64,000 nucleotides of DNA, taken from NCBI GenBank assembly GCA_006247105.1, contig CM016925.1, positions 1,240,001 to 1,304,000 on the forward strand, written 5' to 3'. This stretch comes from Giardia muris. Taxonomy: Eukaryota; Fornicata; Diplomonadida; Hexamitidae. Each line of letters opens with the position of its first letter. The first letter of the stretch is position 1. Below, one piece after another: positions 37,247 to 49,111 of this stretch. The notes under the pieces were generated by a model. That model made no database searches. It was not told the DNA's origin and was given only the letters and a program-made list of their open reading frames with translations. The position numbers were made by a program, and so were the translations under genes.

Positions 37247-37258
37247 GGAAAAACTTGG

Positions 37259-38281
37259 ATGCCAATATATGCCATTCGTGGTTCCATGCGCCTTATCCTG
37301 GTCGATTTGCCCTGGCCCTATGTTCAGAAGCTTATGAAGGAGAAGACGGGAGCATTTGTCAAGCGCTTTTCTACAATCAGCGCGATTCTTGAGGATGGTT
37401 GGTACAAGGATTTGACTGGAATCCAGGTCATTGTCCGTGGAGGATCACGAATGTCACTGGAAGAGTATTTGAGTAGCGTGGATGAGGGAGACTCGAAGGA
37501 AGCGCTGACCACGAAGGAACCTACTAATGAGGCAGTTATATTCAACTCTTCTGAACTTGTTTCAGAGTTCAGTGCACTCGAGTCTATTGAACCACAGTAT
37601 CTTTTGCATGAGAATGCGTCTAAAAAGGCATCGGAGTGCATCTATAGATATGAGGAGGAATGTCATCGATGTTATGAGATCTATTCGAATGGTCTTGTCG
37701 ATCTCGGGCATGCTGATGGTCAGAAGCGTACCTTTGCTCAGTTCCGTCGAGCGATGACCATGGATAACCTTGATGTTGAGTATGTCGCCTTTACTGATGG
37801 CGGAGCACGGCCTAGTAATGGTGGTCCAGGGGCTTGGGGTTGTATTCTTCTGGACTGTCGTTCATTGGATGAGGAGAATACCGTTCCGTTACCCTTTCAG
37901 AAGATGCATAGGCGCTATTGGAGGACGACGAATAACAGGATGGAACTTCGAGCCATCCTTGCAGCACTAACTAGTATACCTCCAGGTTCGTCCATCTGGG
38001 TCGTCACAGACTCACAATATTCAATCGATTGCATGACGTCTTATCTGCCCTCGTGGGAAGTAGCGGGGAAGCTCTCTCCATACTTCACAGAGTCTTCGCC
38101 TCCGAAAAACCGTGACCTCTTTCTTCTTCTGGCCACAGAGGCCGCCCGTCGTAAAGTAATCTTCACACACGTCCGAGGACACACAGGCCACGCTCTCAAC
38201 GAGTTAGTTGATAGGCTCTCCAATCCCAGGGCGTTTCCTGATGACATGCCATGGCATTGCGATACAGGTTTCAGTCCCTAG
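37259..38281 (+). CDS. RNH1: Type 1 ribonuclease H with novel N-terminal region
   Basis: This 340-residue protein has an RNase H type 1 domain in about residues 175-325. The catalytic acids are all visible: Asp in FTDGGARPSNGGPGAWG, Glu in NRMELRAILAAL, Asp in VVTDSQYS and Asp in NELVDRLS. The HVRGHTGHALN loop with its conserved His precedes the last Asp. The enzyme cuts the RNA strand of RNA-DNA hybrids such as R-loops and primers. The first 170 residues do not resemble the hybrid-binding domain of eukaryotic RNase H1 and have no family I can name. There is no reverse transcriptase nearby, so it is not part of a retroelement here. A second in-frame ATG lies 24 bp downstream of the chosen one. 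Confidence 0.88.
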   Translation: MPIYAIRGSMRLILVDLPWPYVQKLMKEKTGAFVKRFSTISAILEDGWYKDLTGIQVIVRGGSRMSLEEYLSSVDEGDSKEALTTKEPTNEAVIFNSSELVSEFSALESIEPQYLLHENASKKASECIYRYEEECHRCYEIYSNGLVDLGHADGQKRTFAQFRRAMTMDNLDVEYVAFTDGGARPSNGGPGAWGCILLDCRSLDEENTVPLPFQKMHRRYWRTTNNRMELRAILAALTSIPPGSSIWVVTDSQYSIDCMTSYLPSWEVAGKLSPYFTESSPPKNRDLFLLLATEAARRKVIFTHVRGHTGHALNELVDRLSNPRAFPDDMPWHCDTGFSP

Positions 38282-39629: not shown

Positions 39630-40057
39630 CTAATGTTCATCCTGACCGGCAGGTATGAACCATGCAGGTTCCAATGCTGCCATCCTATTCCCCTTCTGGG
39701 TTCCTTGCAGATATGAGACTACTTCCCACAGATTCTTCATTATCCTCGGATACTTATCCTTCGATAAGAAGTGGATTAACTTCCATCATATCCTTTCTGA
39801 TTTACTGCACGTACCTCGGCAGCACCCATACTTCTGCCTGTGTATTTAGATTCTTGCATTGCAGCAGTTTTGAATTCGTCGGGTCTTATGACGAAATCCT
39901 CAGACCACATAGTACAGATCGTCGAGGACTGGTGTGAGGAGGATATCTTCGAGCCAGAGGTGGCCCGAAGACGTGGGTCATCGTCGCTCATACAAGGCGA
40001 GAGCGGTCCGGACGACCTCAAACCGAATACTAGGTCTACTGGGGGGCTCATCACAGG
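39630..40057. other. Intergenic stretch without a supported gene
   Basis: I see no convincing gene, RNA or repeat in these 428 bp. Short open frames on both strands have no recognisable motif. It marks the left edge of the degenerate island and lies just downstream of the kinase remnant on the minus strand. Confidence 0.5.
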
Positions 40058-40380
40058 TCACTGGTGCCTCTCTGCCTCCTCGAGGACCTCCCGTGCTGTC
40101 GGACGGTCTTTGGGGTCCTTCGAGAGCATCCGGGAGATGAGGGGACCAAGCTCACCCCTTCCCTCGATGGCTGGGGGCTCTTCCTCGGTGATGGCAGTTA
40201 CCCTGAGGAAAGGAAGCCTCCCAGTGCACAACTCATATCCAATCACTCCCAGGGCCCAGACGTCCCCACTACATCTACCCCAGTGCAGTACTCGGGATGA
40301 TCGACCGCTCCTCCGGAAGAGCAGTACCGGAGATCGACGTCCTCGAGGGCTCGGTGGAGGTGAAGGCTCGAGATGCGGGG
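40058..40380 (-). pseudogene. Remnant of a NEK-like kinase C-lobe
   Basis: Read on the minus strand, this fragment holds the second half of a kinase domain. PEYCTGVDV is followed, after a frame change near 40260, by WALGVIGYELCTGRLPF. The last helix LISRMLSKDPKDRPT and AREVLEEAERH then runs to a stop at 40058. Subdomain IX (DVWALG) is split across the frameshift. There is no N-lobe, VAIK, HRD or DFG upstream: the sequence above about 40380 on this strand gives no kinase match, and the plus strand there encodes a surface-protein fragment. NEK kinases with degenerate or broken copies are common in Giardia. It is non-functional by frameshift and truncation. Confidence 0.7.
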
Positions 40381-40918
40381 GCGTGTGCAGCTGATTCGAA
40401 CTTCACCATCCCGGGGGTTCAAGGAGAGTTCTGCAAGAAGTGTTCGACCGAGTCGGAGGCCCCGATCGATGGGGTGTGTGGGGCGACTACTGCTGTCACG
40501 GGTGCTACTTGTGGTAGTGGTGTCTGCACAGTATGTGGAACGGGGAACTACTTCCTGTTCAACGGGGGCTGTTATGACCAGACCAAGGAGCCTGGGAGTA
40601 AGCTGTGCGGAGCGACTCCAACTAACGGTGTTTGCGGGACGGCGGCATCTGGGGCCTTCGTCAAGGACAGCAACCTCTACCTCTGTAACGATGCGACAAA
40701 TGGAGGAAAAGAGAACTGCGGGACGTGCACCTACGCCTCGAACGCCTTCACGTGCTCGGAGTGCCTCGAGGGCCACCACTCTTCCTCCTCTTCTCCCGTC
40801 GTCTGTACGAAGTGCACCCTCCCCAACTGTGTATCCTACCCAGACAGCAAGGACGTCTGCACAACCTGCCTCAACGGCTTCCAGGGGTATATGGATGCGA
40901 TCGGGCCGGCTTGTGGGG
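40375..40918 (+). pseudogene. Variant surface protein (VSP) internal fragment
   Basis: This fragment of about 180 residues is typical of Giardia VSPs. It has six CxxC motifs (CKKC, CTVC, CGTC, CSEC, CTKC, CTTC), the hallmark GGCY (in FLFNGGCYDQ) and Gly/Thr/Ser-rich spacers. It lies in an open frame from 40297 to 41049. It has no signal peptide at the front: the first 26 codons of the frame are antisense to the kinase remnant. At the back there is no membrane span and no conserved short cytoplasmic tail; the Cys-rich part stops at PACGGEE and is followed by unrelated codons. It is therefore an incomplete copy that could serve as a sequence donor but not as a surface protein. VSPs cover the trophozoite surface and vary antigenically. 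Confidence 0.8.
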
Positions 40919-41071
40919 GCGAGGAGGCCTCAACGAGCACCCCGAGGAGAGCCGTGGACCTTCCGTCCTCGGGGCAGGTCGTTGGTAGTGGTTGGATGCC
41001 CAGAGTGTCGGATGGTATGGGAGAGGGAGCTTCAGTGGAAGGCTGGTGAAGGGGATGTTTGATTCTCAAAA

Positions 41072-42802
41072 ATGTCCGTTACAGACTTGATGAGGGCGGC
41101 CGGGAGAGGAGACCTCGAGGACGTGAAAAGGAATCTCAATCAGGTCGGGAAGAAGAACGAAAATGGTTGGACGGCCCTGATGGAGGCCGCAATGAGGGGT
41201 CACGCCAATTGCATCCCCCTCCTTGAGAAGGAGATTGGGATGCAGGACAAAAAGGGGTGGACTGCATTGATGTGGACTGCCCTTTATGGTCAAACAGACT
41301 GTGTCCGGCTCCTCCTCTCCGAAGTGGGGAAGCAGACAACAACGAATATTACGATCACCTCGAATGGCAAAACAGTTCCCTTCCCTTCCGGAACGACTGC
41401 TCTCATGATGGCAGCCCGGAATGGCCACACAGACTGTATTCTTCTACTCAAGGAAGAGGTCGGGAAGCAGAACAAAGATGGCATGACAGCTCTGATGTGG
41501 GCTGCAATACAAGGCCACGCCAATTTCATTCCCCTCCTCGAAAAGGAGATTGGGGTGCAGGACAACTGGGGACGGACTGCATTGATGAATGCCGCCTACT
41601 ATGCTAGTACAGACTGTACTCGACTCCTCCTCTCAGAGGCGGGAAAGCAGACAACGAAGGAATATAACGACTTTCCCCCCGGAACGACCGCACTCATGAT
41701 GGCAGCCCACCGAAACCGCCCCGAAGTCGTCAAACTCCTTCTCCCCTACGAGCAGGGACTGAAGGACTCCAAAGGTCATACAGCTCAATGGCATGCAAAT
41801 AACAGCTCATGGAGAGGAGACTTCACCCGAGTCCGTCAGCTCCTCGAGAACGAGGGCACGGAACGACTTCCTCCACCGGATCCTGAACTACTTATACTAC
41901 AGTATCGTGTTAGCGAACTCACCACTGAGAATGAGTCTCTCAAGAAAGACCTCTCCTCCTTCAAGAATGCACATGAGGAAATGAAGAATGAGCTATCTCA
42001 ACTGAATCGGGAAGTCTCCTCCCTCAAACAGCAACTCGACAATGCCATTGAGGAGTCTAAGAAGAATCACGAGCTGAACGAGGCCCTGAACAAGAGGGCA
42101 CAGGAGGCCGAGAAGAGCCTTGCCGAGGCGAAGGGGGAGATCACTTCTCTCAAGAACCAGCTCACTGAGATGGAAAGCACAACACTCAAGCAGGACAACA
42201 AGATCTCCCACCTACGCACAGAGAACGCTTCTCTTCAGGAGCAGCTATCCTCCTCCAAGAAGGCGCAAGGAGAAGCAGAGGAGAGGCTCTTCCAGATGAA
42301 TCAAGAGATATCATCCCTCAAAGTCCAACTCTCCAAGACCAACGAAGAGAATGACGTCCTCCACAAACAGTTCGAGGACAGGGAACGACGGGACAGGGCT
42401 CAGATCGATCAGCTAACTGCAGAAGTCTCCTCCCTCAAACAGCAGCTCGACAATGCCATCGATGAGTCCAAGAGGCATGCGGAGATGAACGAGGACCTTC
42501 GAAAGGCCTCTGACCAGAATCGAGCCCTCATCAACGCCCTCACCACAGAGAAGGCGACTCTTCAGGAGCAGCTCTCCAAGACCACTGAGGACCTCAAAAG
42601 AGCACTCGCAGACCAGAAGGCCCAGATCCTCGTCCTCGAGAAGGAGGTTACCCAATTGAGGACCGAGAACCATGACATGAAAGACCTTCAGAGACGCCTC
42701 GAGGAGGTGGAGGAGGAGAAGAGGGTCCTCCTCCAGAACCTCGCTGCCGTCGGGGGCAGGCTCACCAACCACCCCCAGGGCCTTGGAACGCCCACTGGAT
42801 GA
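41072..42802 (+). CDS. Ankyrin-repeat / coiled-coil protein ('protein 21.1' type)
   Basis: This 576-residue intact gene begins at an ATG after tctcaaaa. Residues about 1-245 contain six or so ankyrin repeats with the recurrent GxTALMxAAxxGH core (for example NGWTALMEAAMRGH and DGMTALMWAAIQGH). Residues about 275-560 form one long coiled coil built from repeated LKQQL-x6-ESK and LxTEN-x4-EQL units, suggesting internal duplication. Ankyrin/coiled-coil proteins of this type are called protein 21.1 in Giardia, are very numerous and have no settled function. Its coiled-coil end is repeated, inverted and base-for-base identical over 337 bp, in a broken copy 3 kb away. It sits 150 bp after the VSP fragment. 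Confidence 0.85.
   Translation: MSVTDLMRAAGRGDLEDVKRNLNQVGKKNENGWTALMEAAMRGHANCIPLLEKEIGMQDKKGWTALMWTALYGQTDCVRLLLSEVGKQTTTNITITSNGKTVPFPSGTTALMMAARNGHTDCILLLKEEVGKQNKDGMTALMWAAIQGHANFIPLLEKEIGVQDNWGRTALMNAAYYASTDCTRLLLSEAGKQTTKEYNDFPPGTTALMMAAHRNRPEVVKLLLPYEQGLKDSKGHTAQWHANNSSWRGDFTRVRQLLENEGTERLPPPDPELLILQYRVSELTTENESLKKDLSSFKNAHEEMKNELSQLNREVSSLKQQLDNAIEESKKNHELNEALNKRAQEAEKSLAEAKGEITSLKNQLTEMESTTLKQDNKISHLRTENASLQEQLSSSKKAQGEAEERLFQMNQEISSLKVQLSKTNEENDVLHKQFEDRERRDRAQIDQLTAEVSSLKQQLDNAIDESKRHAEMNEDLRKASDQNRALINALTTEKATLQEQLSKTTEDLKRALADQKAQILVLEKEVTQLRTENHDMKDLQRRLEEVEEEKRVLLQNLAAVGGRLTNHPQGLGTPTG
42422..42758 (+). repeat. 337-bp perfect inverted repeat, left arm
   Basis: This segment encodes the last coiled-coil stretch of the intact ankyrin gene. 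Reading the reverse complement of 45899-46235 base by base I find no difference. Similarity falls abruptly at both edges. The arms are 3.1 kb apart. Confidence 0.9.
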
Positions 42803-45559
42803 CCTGCGTCCGGAGGCAGGGGCAGGAGGTCGGAAGGCCCGGCCGGATGAAGGAGTCCCCGTCGGTCCTCCTATGGGCCTCCGGGATCAACAGTCATCCT
42901 CCAGTGCCCCGGTCTTCGTCCTTCGATCAAGAGGAGTGAACGGGATCACGGGAGGGGACGAGAGGACGACCATGAGCCCCGGTTGATCTCAACCCGTCTC
43001 CATGAAGGAGGGCCGGCCTCCTCGGATCTGCCTGAGGGCATGGATGGAGAGCGGGGAAGGGCACCAGGCCGTGCATGGCTGTGTGAGCCAATGCCGGCTG
43101 CTCACTGCCCCGGACTCGTGACGGAAGTGGGTGTCCGGAGTTCACGTCCTCCAGCTTGTGGGGCCGTACCACGAACTGGAGCCTGTTCGAGGAGCGTGAG
43201 GTGCACGGGTCGACGCCACCATGGACAGTATCCTCCTTGGTCGTCCCACGATGCACTGAGGATCCTCGGGGATGACAGCATCCACGACGACGGGTCCTTA
43301 GGCACAGGGAAGACTGCCCGAGTCGAACGGAGTGGGTGTCAGTCGGTTCGTGGAAGGACACGTTCTACCTCCTTCCCGACTGTGGTGGTATCGGGAGGTC
43401 CACCATCGGCTGGGGACGTCGGGGGGACCTGGAACCTCTGAGTTCGATCATCGGATGGAGCACGAGTCCTGTCCAACCTTATGGATCCCCTCGCTCTCGG
43501 ACCCTGAGTCTGATACACCAGCCACTGGTTCGTCGTCCCTTCCTCGCCCCAACTCGGCCTCCGACTCTGATCGTCCCCTTGTCGTCGGATCCCTGTTTCC
43601 TCCTGGAACCCTTCTTGAAGCCACGAGGACCTCCTTGTCCACCCTTGCACGGATATCGTTCGAGTGGGGCTGTCATCACACGCCCAAGGAGGAGGTCGAG
43701 TACGAACGCCCCGAGACCTTTGCCATTGGGGAGCTCCTCCTGCAGGGACGTGCTCCCGGTCGTCCGTCTGACCCCTTCCCAACACGGACGCCAAGGAGGT
43801 CTCCGTTATCTCCACCTCGGACGGCTCTTCATCCGAGGTCATCCTGTCAGCAACATGCAGGGAATCGGAGGCAGGTCAAGTGGTGGGAGGGCCGGAGCAA
43901 GACGGACGCCTTCAGACTGGTAGGTACGCGTATAGAGTGGCATCCTACCCCTCCCACCTCCTAGACGCCTGCACGTACAGGACCGACCGGACCGTCCCAC
44001 GAGGGGGTTCGGGGAGGCGTCTCCCAACCAGGCCTCTGACGTGCCGTGACGACCGGACGTCATCGAGGACCTCCTTGAGATACGACCAGGAGGCCCGGGG
44101 ACGTGGGGATGACCGAAACACGTGCCTGGAGGCTGCACACAGGGAACGGGCTCACCTCCCTTCCGGTCTTCCCGTCTCGACCCAGAACAGCGCCCCATCA
44201 CGAGTGCTTCCGGGGTCTCATACTACGACCTCGAGACGTCCGGTCCAACCTGAGGCCTGATGGCACCCACAATGGGCGGGTCTATCCTGTCCAGGCATCC
44301 CGACGTATGAACCCAGCTGCTACGGTCCCCTCGAGCACATTCACGGACTGCATCTGGCATCACTTAGATCCGAGTCTCCTCACTTCCGGACGATGAGGGC
44401 TTCCAGGAGAGAAAGGAAGGACACAGGGGATGGGGAAGGGAGACGACTGGAGAGGAACGGGGCAGCTCGGTAACTACGGGAGCTGTTAGCTGGCCAGCAG
44501 TATGGACATGTCGGCCTGCATAGAGCCGTCCTGGTGGCCGGGACTAGGGCCAAGGCCCCCCGAGGCTCCCGTAGGTGGTCAGGCTGAAGGGTGCTCACTG
44601 GACGGGAGGTTGTCGTCGCTGCTCACGCAGTCCCCTTTCATCCTCCACATCATCTCGGACGTAGTGGACAATGATCTGCACAGGTACGTCGGGTAGCCGG
44701 CAGTGGAACCCAGCCCGGAGATAGGAATCACTCCAGCTCGCCAGCAGGAGTCAGGCGCTCACTACGGGACAGCAGGTATGTACCCCCGGCTGACGTGGTT
44801 GGTCGTCGCTTCCAGACAGCGGAGGCGGTTGCAGCTGACCATCTGCTCGCACTCGAGGCACAGGGGACAGGCGTCTTCAAGCATCCGGGCCTGCTCCTCG
44901 CTGTCGAGCCATCTGTGGGGAGGAGCGGATGGCCTCTGATACTGGAGGTTCGTCATCCCTCTCCGACGGTGGAAGAGAAGCATGGACCCGGACGGGCCCC
45001 TCCCAGCACCCATAAAGGAGCGTGCACACCTCAGGAGCTCCCCTTGTGGCGCGGTGGCGGCACCGAACGCGAGCAAGCTGCCCATGGCGATGACGGTGGT
45101 ATCGACATCTTCTCCATCATCCATCCGCCCATCGGAGCCTGCAATCCTGCACCTGGACGGGATGCCGGGGGCTCGTGGGACCTGTGCTCGCCGGGGCATA
45201 TAGTACGTCCCTCATGACCGATCCCTGACTGGCAGAGGGGAACTGGGACTGATGAGGCCTGTGACGAGAAGCTGCCATGGCCCTGGCCAGTCAACGATGA
45301 TGGTCACCTCGTGGACGTCTCGAGGATCGATGGGGTTGGTCAGAAGGCTCAAAGGCTTCATCATTGAGGATTCTGATGACACTGTCCTCTCCGTTGGGGA
45401 CCTGAAATGTGAGGAGGATCAACAGACCTTCTGAGGGAGGCTCGGGGTCTTCGTCACTCCATCCGGAAGAGCTGAGTCCTCTGACGGTTCCTTGATACCG
45501 CCTCTTTTCCCCGACCATGATCAGAAGCGATCCTCAAGGCCCCGAACACCCAAGAGCTC
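42803..45559. other. 2.75-kb region without an intact gene
   Basis: No frame in this stretch gives a protein I would defend. The open frames present (up to about 210 codons on either strand) are Arg/Pro/Ser-rich, overlap one another on opposite strands and lack motifs, as expected from GC-rich decayed sequence. On the minus strand near 44860-44920 a Cys cluster (ACPLCLECEQ, then SCNRLRC) hints at a Cys-rich surface-protein relic. Near 43700-43760 a phrase GLGAFVLDLLLGR resembles kinase subdomain IX. Neither is enough for a call. It looks like a graveyard between the two ankyrin/coiled-coil copies. Confidence 0.55.
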
Positions 45560-45862
45560 TGCAGGAGGATGACTGGCTGCCCCCTTGAAGAGGGAGGTGT
45601 CGTCATCCCGCATCCTGACGCCTCCTGGGGCCGGGGAGCACGTCTTGCAGGTCTTGGGACTGCTGTCGAAGTGGTCCCTCACAGGTGCACTTGGAGGCGT
45701 CAGTCTTATCCATTCCCTTGCAGACGGGACTGGTCGAGCTGACATGGTAGCAGCCCGAAGAGGACGTCTCCAGTCCTGCACGTCATTGCAGTGCCATCGA
45801 AGGGGAGGAGTAGGGGGCGGTTTAGCCCGCTGTGACAGGCACTTCAGGTCCTGCCTGTTCAA
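45560..45862 (-). pseudogene. Possible frameshifted VSP relic
   Basis: In two different minus-strand frames this stretch reads VCKGMDKTDASKCTCEG and then SSPKTCKTCSPAPG. Phrases like these (C..C, 'KTDASKC', 'CKTCSP') are typical of VSP interiors. A frame change separates them and no start, signal or membrane segment is present. The call rests on short matches only and may be wrong. Confidence 0.3.
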
Positions 45863-45866
45863 GGAG

Positions 45867-46756
45867 TCAGGAGTCCTGGCCTTTGGGAGTGACTACCATG
45901 CCCCCGACGGCAGCGAGGTTCTGGAGGAGGACCCTCTTCTCCTCCTCCACCTCCTCGAGGCGTCTCTGAAGGTCTTTCATGTCATGGTTCTCGGTCCTCA
46001 ATTGGGTAACCTCCTTCTCGAGGACGAGGATCTGGGCCTTCTGGTCTGCGAGTGCTCTTTTGAGGTCCTCAGTGGTCTTGGAGAGCTGCTCCTGAAGAGT
46101 CGCCTTCTCTGTGGTGAGGGCGTTGATGAGGGCTCGATTCTGGTCAGAGGCCTTTCGAAGGTCCTCGTTCATCTCCGCATGCCTCTTGGACTCATCGATG
46201 GCATTGTCGAGCTGCTGTTTGAGGGAGGAGACTTCCCGATTCAATTGAGAGAGTTTCTCTTCTGTTTTCCCTTGGCATTCTTGGGCAACTCCCTTCTTGA
46301 GAAATTCGTCCTCAATACCGGTTTGTTAACGCGCTCCAAGGACCTCAACATCTCGGTAGGATTCGATGGGAGGAGAATATGCCTTGTGCCCTCGTTCTAG
46401 AGGAGTTTGTGAGCCCGGGTGAAAGCTCCTCCCCTTGGGTCGCCGTTGTTCGCGTACCACTTGGCTGTGCGCCCTTCGGACCCTTCCACTCCCTTTTCGT
46501 GGGGGAAGAAACGTTGGGGGTTCTCAGGCCAATGCTGACGGGCTGCACATGAGAGCGGTCGCTCCGAAGTGGGATTCATCCCGTTCCTTTGTCTACCACT
46601 TCCTCGCCTCAGAGAGGAGGAGCTGAACACAGTCCATCTTACTATGGTGGGCAGCCTCCATCCCTCGTTATCCTTCTTCCCAGTGTCATCGATGTTCTCC
46701 TTCACAGGCTTGAGATCTCCTCTTCCGGGCATCCTCGATAACCCAGTGAAGGACGC
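45867..46756 (-). pseudogene. Broken inverted copy of the ankyrin/coiled-coil gene
   Basis: This is a minus-strand relative of the gene at 41072-42802. Its 5' end aligns codon by codon with that gene's start (GRGDLKPVKENIDDTGKKD against GRGDLEDVKRNLNQVGKKN). The position of the ATG now reads GCG (46754-46756). Most ankyrin repeats are deleted, a frame change follows near 46650, and the segment GRTAKWYANNGDPRGGAF matches the last repeat. The frame then stops at 46397, just where the intact gene reads LLENEGT. A diverged piece of the first coiled coil comes next, then 337 bp identical to the intact gene, and it ends at 45867 in unrelated codons. It is non-functional. The contrast between worn and identical parts is the notable feature. 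Confidence 0.85.
45899..46235 (-). repeat. 337-bp perfect inverted repeat, right arm
   Basis: This is the reverse complement of 42422-42758 with no mismatch found. It lies within the broken ankyrin/coiled-coil copy, whose other parts are clearly diverged. On the plus strand it produces a long antisense open frame (45585-46400) that should not be annotated. Confidence 0.9.
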
Positions 46757-47051
46757 CTCTGAGGCGTTATTTCCTTATCCCCTTTCCAGATATCAACTCT
46801 CTGACCTATAGCTGACGACAAGGATCAGATGGATTCGGACTTTCTCTCCACGTCCTGGAGATGATGAAGATAGTGAGACGTGATTTTCTTCTTATGTTCC
46901 GAAACTCCTCAGACCTCAGGGCTCACCCTCTAAACTCCAGGAGATATGCCGCTCTCGTCATTTCGAGGTAGTATAGATTCATAAGGTACCGATCTAGATG
47001 TTAGGCGTGGTTCTTCGACTTGTTGAAGTGTCATTGTCTATCTATCAGTAA

Positions 47052-47912
47052 ATGGATCCCTCTCCTTCTGAGAATGGTTCCACCTCCCTACTACGGTGCT
47101 CGGACCTCCTTCGCCGCGCGTTTCCCGGAGGCCCGCCGGCGTTTGAAACGGACGACGCAGGAGTGGAGTATCTAACCGCTGTCCTTGAGCAGTATCATAG
47201 TATCTGTGCAGGGGCGTCTGCGCTTCGGACAGTGTTGCGGAATCGAACATCTGCAGCTTCCATCGAGCAGCAACTCATTCACGAGGAACTAGAGCAGATC
47301 AGACCCCACTTCGAGACCACTCTTCCAGACGAAGTTTTACGGGCCGCATCCGAGCTTGCGGTCTTCGGCTCTTTACTAGCATCAGCAACGGCCGGCACGT
47401 CAGTGCATCCACATTGGCCATATGGAGCCGCCGTGATCGGAACCCTGGTTTGTGCCGAACTTGAGCAGCAATCCGCTGTCTCGCGGCTTGCGGAACTCAA
47501 GGAACGCTCTCAAGACCTTGAGAAGGCAGCAGAGACCTGCAAAGACGAGGTTGCGGCACTGAACACACGCGAGACCAGTATCCTTCCCGATATCCTAGCA
47601 TCAGAGCACACGTACCTTTCCACCGCGGCTCAGCAGCAGCGGGTTGCGGAGCAATACATCCTTGAAGCCGCCGCAATACGGACGAGGCTCCTATGCCCTG
47701 AGGCTTTCGACTCACACCTCTTTGCAAAAGCTATGACTGAGCTAGCAGAATCCCATCGATCGGTTGAAGCGTTTCTTAGCAGCGAGACGTACTTACTTCT
47801 AAAGAGCGTTCCACGGCTACCGCCGTCACGCTTGGCGGAGGCTCTGGCCAAGCTTAGAGAGGACGTGCACTCTCTCGCCACGGAGGTTGCAATGATAGTG
47901 GGGAGGCGTTAG
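47052..47912 (+). CDS. Coiled-coil hypothetical protein
   Basis: This 286-residue helical protein has a central coiled coil (about 145-215, LAELKERSQDLEKAAETCKD onward) and a short Ser-rich N-terminus. The N-terminal third (SDLLRRAFPGG, then YLTAVLEQYHSI) could be a small globular domain like those of kinetochore or augmin subunits, but I cannot make a case for any family. The ATG at 47052 follows a 295-bp spacer (46757-47051) that is A/T-richer and holds nothing I recognise. It overlaps the CstF-50 gene by 4 bp, stop to stop. Confidence 0.7.
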   Translation: MDPSPSENGSTSLLRCSDLLRRAFPGGPPAFETDDAGVEYLTAVLEQYHSICAGASALRTVLRNRTSAASIEQQLIHEELEQIRPHFETTLPDEVLRAASELAVFGSLLASATAGTSVHPHWPYGAAVIGTLVCAELEQQSAVSRLAELKERSQDLEKAAETCKDEVAALNTRETSILPDILASEHTYLSTAAQQQRVAEQYILEAAAIRTRLLCPEAFDSHLFAKAMTELAESHRSVEAFLSSETYLLLKSVPRLPPSRLAEALAKLREDVHSLATEVAMIVGRR

Positions 47913-49111
47913 AGACGATTTGAGGCTTGTCGGTAGATGTAGAGGGTCTTGTCGTAGACGAGGGCGTACATCGGGCTGACAGGGTTTCCACAACACAACT
48001 CATTGTTATAGCGTGCAGTCTTATCTAAAGAGAGTCTTTCTCCGGACCCAAGAAGATAGCCTATGACTCGCATCTTCTGTTCTGCCGTGTCCCGGCCCGT
48101 CAGGCCGATGACGACCTGGTCGTTATCCATGGTCGTTGCGCTTGAAACGAGCGATTGAAAGGCCTTGACATGTTTCGCCGTGTTCCGGATGTCGTAGAGC
48201 CGGCATGCGTCATGGCCGTCGGAGAGTAAGAAGGACGAGCCGTCACCCAAGAAGTGCGCTCGTACGTTCTTACGGATGCTTGGAAGGGTAACGGACATGT
48301 TCGCTCGCCGGCCATTTGAGCGGTCATAGAAGGTGATCCCGCATTGGTGAGTCGCCCACATGTACTTGACAGATCGGTCATTACTATTGAAGCCAACCAT
48401 CGAGATCGAGTTAGCCTTATCAACGGCATCAGTGACATATATCGCGTCCTTCCGTTGGAGGTCGAAGATCCTGAGGACAGTGTCGGAGGCCGTCCCCGTC
48501 ACTAGGTGCGTCCCGGACGGGTGCCATGCAACGGCACTTAAGTTCTTCTCCATACTGATGGCATCTAAGTGTCCGGACCCCGTCACGTCGCGGTCCATCG
48601 AGAACAAACGAATCGTCGTATCCTCGCTACAGGTCGCGATGAGCTGTGCATATGGGTGAAAGGCCACATCTGCCACGGTCCCGTGATGCCCATAGAACGT
48701 CCGTGGCTTCGGCCCATCCCGTGTGTTGGGTGCCCCCTCGACACTTATTAGTTTCAGGCAAGCATCACGTGCACCAGTAGCCAAGTACTTCCCATCGGGG
48801 GAGAATCTACATACAACAATGGGCTTCTGGTGTCTATAATTCTTAGGATCCATCGTGAATGCATAGTTCTGAGGATGTGTGCTGTGAGCAGTCGTTATAG
48901 CAGCCTCCGCCGCTTCCAACTCCAGAGACGCTGGGTCCGTGATGGCATTGCTCTCTAATGCCCCACTAAGCAACTTCGCGAGCTGTGGGGCATTCGGTGG
49001 GAGATGAGGCTCGGGCGTCGCCGTCGCCCGCTGAAGCTGCGAGGCGGCGATGTAGAACCCGTCCGCACGGAGCTGGCGGACGATGAGTTGGTACAAATAT
49101 GCCTTGTTCAT
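47909..49111 (-). CDS. CSTF1: Cleavage stimulation factor subunit CstF-50 (WD40)
   Basis: This 400-residue homologue of CSTF1 has the N-terminal dimerisation domain (about 1-60). It opens KAYLYQLIVRQLRADGFYIA, matching the family's 'R..LY+LI+.QL..DG+..+A'. LAKLLSGALESN follows. A seven-blade WD40 propeller comes next, starting VCRFSPDGKYLATGARDACL, then TFYGHHGTVADVAFHPYAQL, IATCSEDTTIRLF and AWHPSGTHLVTGTASDTVLR. The end carries the family's conserved NNELCCGNPVSP-type segment. CstF-50 dimerises and joins CstF-77 in the complex that binds downstream of the poly(A) signal. The ATG at 49111 is used; the open frame to 49189 has extra Met codons but no conserved sequence. It is the second poly(A) factor in the window. 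Confidence 0.87.
   Translation of the reverse strand: MNKAYLYQLIVRQLRADGFYIAASQLQRATATPEPHLPPNAPQLAKLLSGALESNAITDPASLELEAAEAAITTAHSTHPQNYAFTMDPKNYRHQKPIVVCRFSPDGKYLATGARDACLKLISVEGAPNTRDGPKPRTFYGHHGTVADVAFHPYAQLIATCSEDTTIRLFSMDRDVTGSGHLDAISMEKNLSAVAWHPSGTHLVTGTASDTVLRIFDLQRKDAIYVTDAVDKANSISMVGFNSNDRSVKYMWATHQCGITFYDRSNGRRANMSVTLPSIRKNVRAHFLGDGSSFLLSDGHDACRLYDIRNTAKHVKAFQSLVSSATTMDNDQVVIGLTGRDTAEQKMRVIGYLLGSGERLSLDKTARYNNELCCGNPVSPMYALVYDKTLYIYRQASNRL

Follow-up and report, generated by a model that had tools for sequence, protein, structure and literature searches.

The window analysed here is a stretch of 64,000 nucleotides from Giardia muris (contig CM016925.1, positions 1,240,001 to 1,304,000), and positions without a contig label are counted from its first letter. 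Positions elsewhere in the genome are given as label:position, where C1, C2, C3, C4, C33 and C34 are contig labels of the G. muris assembly. The window carries an inverted repeat, the arms of which lie within an intact and a broken ankyrin gene. The following features are present in this region:

40207–41049, plus strand: ORF with a VSP fragment (PF03302, 61.6 bits, profile positions 147–311 of 397)
41072–42802, plus strand: intact ankyrin/coiled-coil gene, an open ORF of 576 aa with the short 3′ end A, putative donor
41998–42087, plus strand: internal repeat of the intact gene, 81% identical to 42409–42498; its alignment with the broken copy spans the left tract edge
42194–42558, plus strand: 365-bp block of the intact gene that is identical to a gene at C1:2107835, a second mosaic block overlapping the tract
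42422–42758, plus strand: arm 1, a coiled-coil cassette copy within the intact gene, 337/337 to arm 2
42759–45898, no strand: spacer of 3140 bp, 62% GC, part of a dispersed repeat, with no recognised coding or RNA family
45867–45898, minus strand: 3′ end C of the broken copy, a short in-frame tail and a stop
45899–46235, minus strand: arm 2, a cassette copy within the broken gene, 337/337 to arm 1, putative recipient
46236–46790, minus strand: head of the broken ankyrin gene, 555 bp, common to four further loci (97–100% identity)

An earlier note on this DNA had claimed that the two arms are identical throughout, and a comparison of 42422–42758 with the reverse complement of 45899–46235 indeed gave a match at all 337 positions. 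In the adjoining 100-bp bins the ungapped identity is 20–34%, which is chance level, and the edges of the tract are abrupt. A repeat search returned the same pair of arms, 100% complementary and 3140 nt apart, in agreement with the distance of about 3.1 kb given before. The remainder of the two copies has diverged, also as described: to the left of the tract a gapped alignment of the broken copy and the intact gene shows about 67% identity, and the ORFs of the broken copy on the minus strand (46774–46397 and 46325–45867) are in different frames. Within two copies that are diverged elsewhere, the identity forms one tract and ends sharply at its edges. For a divergence of 2.35%, mid-range among copies of the flanking spacer, the probability of finding no difference in 337 positions is about 3e-4, and the nearest other cassette copy among those compared with the tract has 11 mismatches in 337. 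A chance match of the arms is excluded by these two values. If transcribed through, such perfect arms might yield double-stranded RNA.

A Pfam profile scan of the intact gene detected Ank_2 at 1.8e-46 together with weaker coiled-coil matches, and its named relatives among the best protein matches are ARP-1/2/3 and NEK kinases of G. muris. With multiple ankyrin repeats and these relatives, it belongs to the protein 21.1 or ankyrin repeat protein (ARP) family. We call this gene live and the broken copy dead, where live refers to the open ORF only. The ORF with the VSP fragment (40207–41049, plus strand) ends 22 bp 5′ of the ATG of the intact gene. Positions 37247–38281 on the plus strand hold a 344-aa ORF with an RNase H domain (PF00075, 84.9 bits); very few retrotransposon sequences are reported for the G. 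muris genome (PMC7641422).

The 337-bp tract represents a coiled-coil cassette of which there are at least 81 copies in the genome (52 contigs and 9.74 Mb in the assembly used here; published as 59 contigs and 9.8 Mb, PMC7641422). This number is a lower bound set by the probe, a 22-base segment of the tract that, with up to two mismatches allowed, matched the genome 81 times and the reversed control once. The sequence around all 81 copies was examined, for 24 of them within 441 bp only. Upstream the cassette bears various ankyrin heads, and downstream it continues into one of three main 3′ ends, A (32 copies), B (39) or C (8), with 2 copies continuing otherwise. The window pair combines end A in the live gene with end C in the dead copy. 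For 57 places the upstream sequence covered 1000 bp or more; among these, the frame stops after 14 residues in 28 of the 30 A copies and after 10 residues in all four C copies, and runs on for at least 242 codons in 21 of the 22 B copies. Two named G. muris NEK proteins were examined, and in both of them ankyrin repeats and a kinase domain come after the cassette. Four C-type cassettes (C2:126897, C4:436363, C33:27678 and C34:11866) have, among the matches listed, a VSP match in the same orientation about 0.6–1.1 kb downstream.

The reading frame of the cassette is open in all 46 ungapped full-length copies (35 distinct), some of them within broken genes such as the dead copy; these 46 were picked by similarity (at most 35 mismatches), and frameshifted copies were thereby left out. 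Variable sites are distributed over codon positions 1, 2 and 3 as 32, 25 and 43. The common 3′ end and the variable 5′ end of the match had suggested a retroposon with 5′ truncation. We dropped this reading because the 3′ junction runs in frame into three different gene ends and the cassette lies inside open genes. With the tract as query, the best 40 of 117 candidates, which are nearly full-length, are 93–100% identical to it. The idea that the cassette is kept exactly identical across its whole family is not supported by these copies, and exact matches are found mostly between neighbours.

The left end of the spacer is the 3′ flank A, and its right end is the 3′ flank C in reverse orientation. 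As a dispersed repeat the spacer has 43 matches including itself at about 97% identity, with recurring right ends at 404, 680, 1701, 2429, 2467, 3050 and 3140. Copies of this repeat are often located on short contigs, adjoining a cassette. The spacer is present at full length at C1:2376784–2379925 (98%) and in two pieces at C4:962550–965598 (96–97%), and the complete cassette-spacer-cassette arrangement is also found at C1:2376783–2379926 and C4:962549–965599. The three spacer copies differ by 2.1–2.8% substitutions, and the C4 copy lacks 87 bp. Since the spacer sits at three loci with this divergence, the A/C arrangement is older than the identity of the arms. We considered the spacer as a gene, a transposon or a structured RNA and rejected all three. 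None of the ten ORFs scanned (one of which overlaps arm 2) matched a Pfam family above the cut-off (one sub-threshold match, E = 0.12), and no Rfam family reached the cut-off in a scan of positions 40000–48000 (one sub-threshold match, E = 0.35). There are many stops in all six frames, and 12 of the 18 gaps in pairwise comparisons of the three copies are not multiples of three.

The history of the two parts of the dead copy can be read from its sister loci. Heads like that of the dead copy are located at C1:1179159, C1:849915, C1:829559 and C3:375883 (97–100% identity, rounded), and each of the four adjoins, at the same seam, a cassette of end type B. Per 555 positions, the dead head has 2 mismatches to its closest sister C1:1179159 and 16 to C3:375883. 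The cassette of the dead copy differs from those of the four sisters at 19, 22, 24 and 26 of 337 positions and from that of its inverted neighbour at none. For the closest sister, the discordance between head (2/555) and cassette (19/337) gives p = 6e-7 in Fisher's test. The relationships of the recipient tract are at odds with those of its own flank: the head follows the sister and the cassette follows the inverted neighbour.

The closest sister has an inverted neighbour of its own. Its cassette (C1:1178822) is identical over 185 bp to the cassette at C1:1184265, and the heads of these two genes differ. At least 1200 bp downstream are also common to both without mismatch, and upstream the match stops abruptly. 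These loci can discriminate between duplication and conversion because a near-identical broken head adjoins different inverted neighbours in the window and at C1:1178822. Two other sisters, C1:830450 and C1:849578, are inverted relative to each other and have 2 mismatches in 385 bp; as both head and cassette are common to them, they do not help to choose between the hypotheses. For the sister C3:376774 no neighbour was found within 25 kb among the copies listed. In all three head-sharing pairs compared for both parts, the cassette diverges more than the head, so that a head that had moved would also fit, which counts against conversion.

We then compared cassette copies by their distance from each other. 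The comparison took in the 66 copies on the five large contigs (2145 pairs) and omitted 15 others, all on small contigs that could be repeats of each other. Identity over 159 bp was found in 7 of the 13 pairs within 30 kb versus 1 of the 2132 other pairs. In a permutation test, none of 20000 permutations reached 7 identical neighbour pairs, the maximum being 2. Within 30 kb, 6 of 9 inverted and 1 of 4 direct pairs are identical, numbers that are too small for us to claim an effect of orientation. Among the identical neighbours there may be simple local duplicates, for instance C1:1960054/1972917 (identical over at least 2.7 kb), and the neighbour count is by itself no proof of conversion. This pair, 13 kb apart, and the pair C1:1438365/1459107, 21 kb apart and identical over at least 1.87 kb, are inverted repeats without mismatch. 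A search for further tracts yielded 37 pairs of copies with ungapped identical runs of at least 200 bp amid diverged stretches, many of them involving small contigs that possibly repeat one another. The window pair is the clearest case, because the sequences differ on both sides of its tract.

The arrangement in the window also forms the core of two palindromes with VSP genes:

C1:2374800–2381900: VSP palindrome L081, centred on the spacer of the window flanked by cassettes
C4:960600–967500: VSP palindrome L082, centred on the spacer of the window flanked by cassettes

The arms are at least 1.9 kb long at both loci, with an identity within the locus of 99.85% (L081) and 99.63% (L082), and the two loci align with each other at about 96.5–97%. 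In L081 each arm contains a tubulin fragment (Pfam Tubulin_C) antisense to the cassette; in the one stretch of L082 that was scanned there was no Pfam match. A frame with the C-terminal part of the VSP family ends 4.2 kb (L081) and 4.15 kb (L082) from the centre, on one side each. Doubling of these distances gives 8400 and 8304 bp. Published tail-to-tail VSP pairs that enclose psi-ARP-2 and alpha-tubulin are listed at spacings of 8400 bp on chromosome 1 and 8303 bp on chromosome 4 (PMC7641422, Table 3). L081 and L082 thus fit the published chromosome 1 and 4 pairs, an assignment made by content, chromosome and spacing, with the VSP seen on one side.

In an alignment of all four arms (1901 ungapped sites), 58 sites are alike in the two arms of a locus and different between the loci, none is side-specific and 10 are single changes. 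Either opposite pattern, with arms unlike within a locus and alike across loci, occurs at 0 of the 1901 sites. The arms within each locus are more alike than the corresponding arms between the loci, as in a palindrome with arm-to-arm conversion. Given identical spacer junctions at L081 and L082, the palindrome would predate the separation of these loci, and its arms appear to have been homogenised since then within each locus. The last 159 bp of the window pair show no difference within the pair and 4–12 differences to the L081 and L082 pairs. The L082 pair retains 5 mismatches over the 159 bp that adjoin the spacer, and its C arm has only 4 to the window pair; this counts against the view, as homogenisation is then not always complete. 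A parallel to VSP recombination had been proposed in the earlier note, and it turned out to be closer than suggested, since the same cassette-spacer-cassette core forms the middle of two VSP palindromes. Seven arm mismatches were counted in L082, 5 of them within 130 bp of the spacer.

The earlier note had left the choice between gene conversion and a very recent inverted duplication. The head/cassette discordance, the concerted arms of L081 and L082 and the clustering of identity among neighbours favour conversion, which is well supported by these sequence comparisons, and a plain recent inverted duplication is not. We estimate a probability of about 80% that the 337-bp inverted repeat arose as a recent gene-conversion tract. 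A recent inverted segmental duplication without conversion would account for the complete identity in a genome rich in recent duplications, among which duplications between ARP and NEK genes are reported for G. muris (PMC7641422). However, nothing is duplicated on either side of the 337 bp, where the heads share about 67% identity with gaps and the 3′ flanks are A versus C, and the A/C junction is not unique to the window, since the diverged spacer carries it at three loci. We therefore regard this explanation as very improbable. Even less credit is given to an assembly artefact, in which arm 2 would have been copied or over-polished from arm 1. The genome is rich in repeats and was assembled from PacBio reads by HGAP with short-read correction (PMC7641422), but long reads should span 337-bp arms that are 3.1 kb apart and have unlike flanks. 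The reported short-read corrections total 70 (8 deletions, 46 insertions and 16 SNPs; PMC7641422), and the arms of some other pairs retain mismatches.

A replacement of the head instead of the cassette deserves more weight, but it is still unlikely. The arms would once have been identical over their full length, as in a palindrome like L081, and a broken head of the C1:1179159 family would have been swapped in later by ectopic recombination at the edge of the cassette. Long, nearly identical palindrome arms do exist around the same spacer, and the dead head is almost the same as that at C1:1179159, 107 kb away. This route requires that the left edge fell by chance into the 11 bp that separate the seam from the first site distinguishing the sisters. 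It also needs a prior homogenisation of the arms as an added step, so that conversion would still be required.

For a conversion tract, the following course can be envisaged. A break in the second copy would have been repaired from the inverted neighbour on the same or the sister chromatid, a molecular route that we infer. Repair would have replaced the entire collinear stretch of the two genes; the replacement would have halted on one side at the spacer, with its unlike 3′ flanks A and C, and on the opposite side at the point beyond which the heads no longer resemble each other. The direction was probably from the live to the dead gene, as judged from cassette positions 1–137. The live gene and the A-type gene at C1:2107835, 825 kb away, do not differ between cassette positions −227 and 137, and this 365-bp block is flanked by about 6% and about 13% ungapped mismatch between the two. 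Positions 1–137 are thus part of a block that reaches into the upstream part of the live gene, and the sisters of the dead gene have different letters there; both points argue for this direction. At cassette positions 138–337 the live gene and C1:2107835 have 12 mismatches in 200, which counts against it, so that either direction may apply to that part.

Identical inverted gene pairs have been described in Giardia before. In G. lamblia, 14 identical inverted VSP pairs, 2–4 kb apart, were put down to duplication and transposition by Adam et al. (2010), who call this cryptic (PMC2996952). Our pair resembles them in its head-to-head or tail-to-tail copies with other DNA between them (2.2–3.8 kb there) and in the abrupt ends of identity. 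Whole surface-protein genes are identical in those pairs (PMC2996952), whereas here it is a 337-bp internal stretch of an ankyrin gene and a pseudogene, and in contrast to the duplication account the sister loci indicate overwriting. In an identical inverted VSP pair both members are VSP genes, and the window pair is not of this type, as its intact member is an ankyrin/coiled-coil gene. For G. muris itself, seven identical VSP pairs were reported by Xu et al. (2020), and the ARP and NEK families, with which rearrangements are said to be often associated, are put forward there as possible anchors of recombination (PMC7641422). Two of these pairs from the same species, those on chromosomes 1 and 4, fit L081 and L082 and would be centred on the spacer of the window. 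The account of VSPs in that paper describes the pairs and VSP/psi-VSP exchange, and not conversion in ARP or NEK genes or a shared cassette-spacer core (PMC7641422). A search of titles and the beginnings of abstracts found, among the papers listed, no account of gene conversion in ARP or NEK genes. Mammalian sex-chromosome palindromes such as the Y palindrome P6 (PMC3723533) are similar in that conversion keeps inverted arms alike. In those palindromes the arms are long and alike throughout, while the window pair belongs to a protist, has short arms and pairs an intact gene with a broken one, with unlike sequence to the left and right of the tract.

Apparently, neighbouring inverted copies overwrite each other, and this would be the source of the exact 337-bp copy in the dead gene. 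Such local overwriting may help to explain the long-puzzling identical VSP pairs of Giardia. A broader view, which we offer tentatively and consider somewhat less than even in likelihood, is that Giardia routinely copy-corrects inverted neighbours and that the coiled-coil cassette of the ankyrin and NEK genes is a hub that swaps heads and 3′ ends and lies at the centre of VSP palindromes. If true, identical inverted VSP pairs would be the outcome of ongoing local conversion and not of very recent duplication. The old question of these pairs, described since at least 2010, can now be tested. Our data also call for caution, as the identity of paralogues in Giardia genomes should not be read at once as recent duplication. 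With the cassette common to NEK kinases, the process would touch two of the largest gene families.
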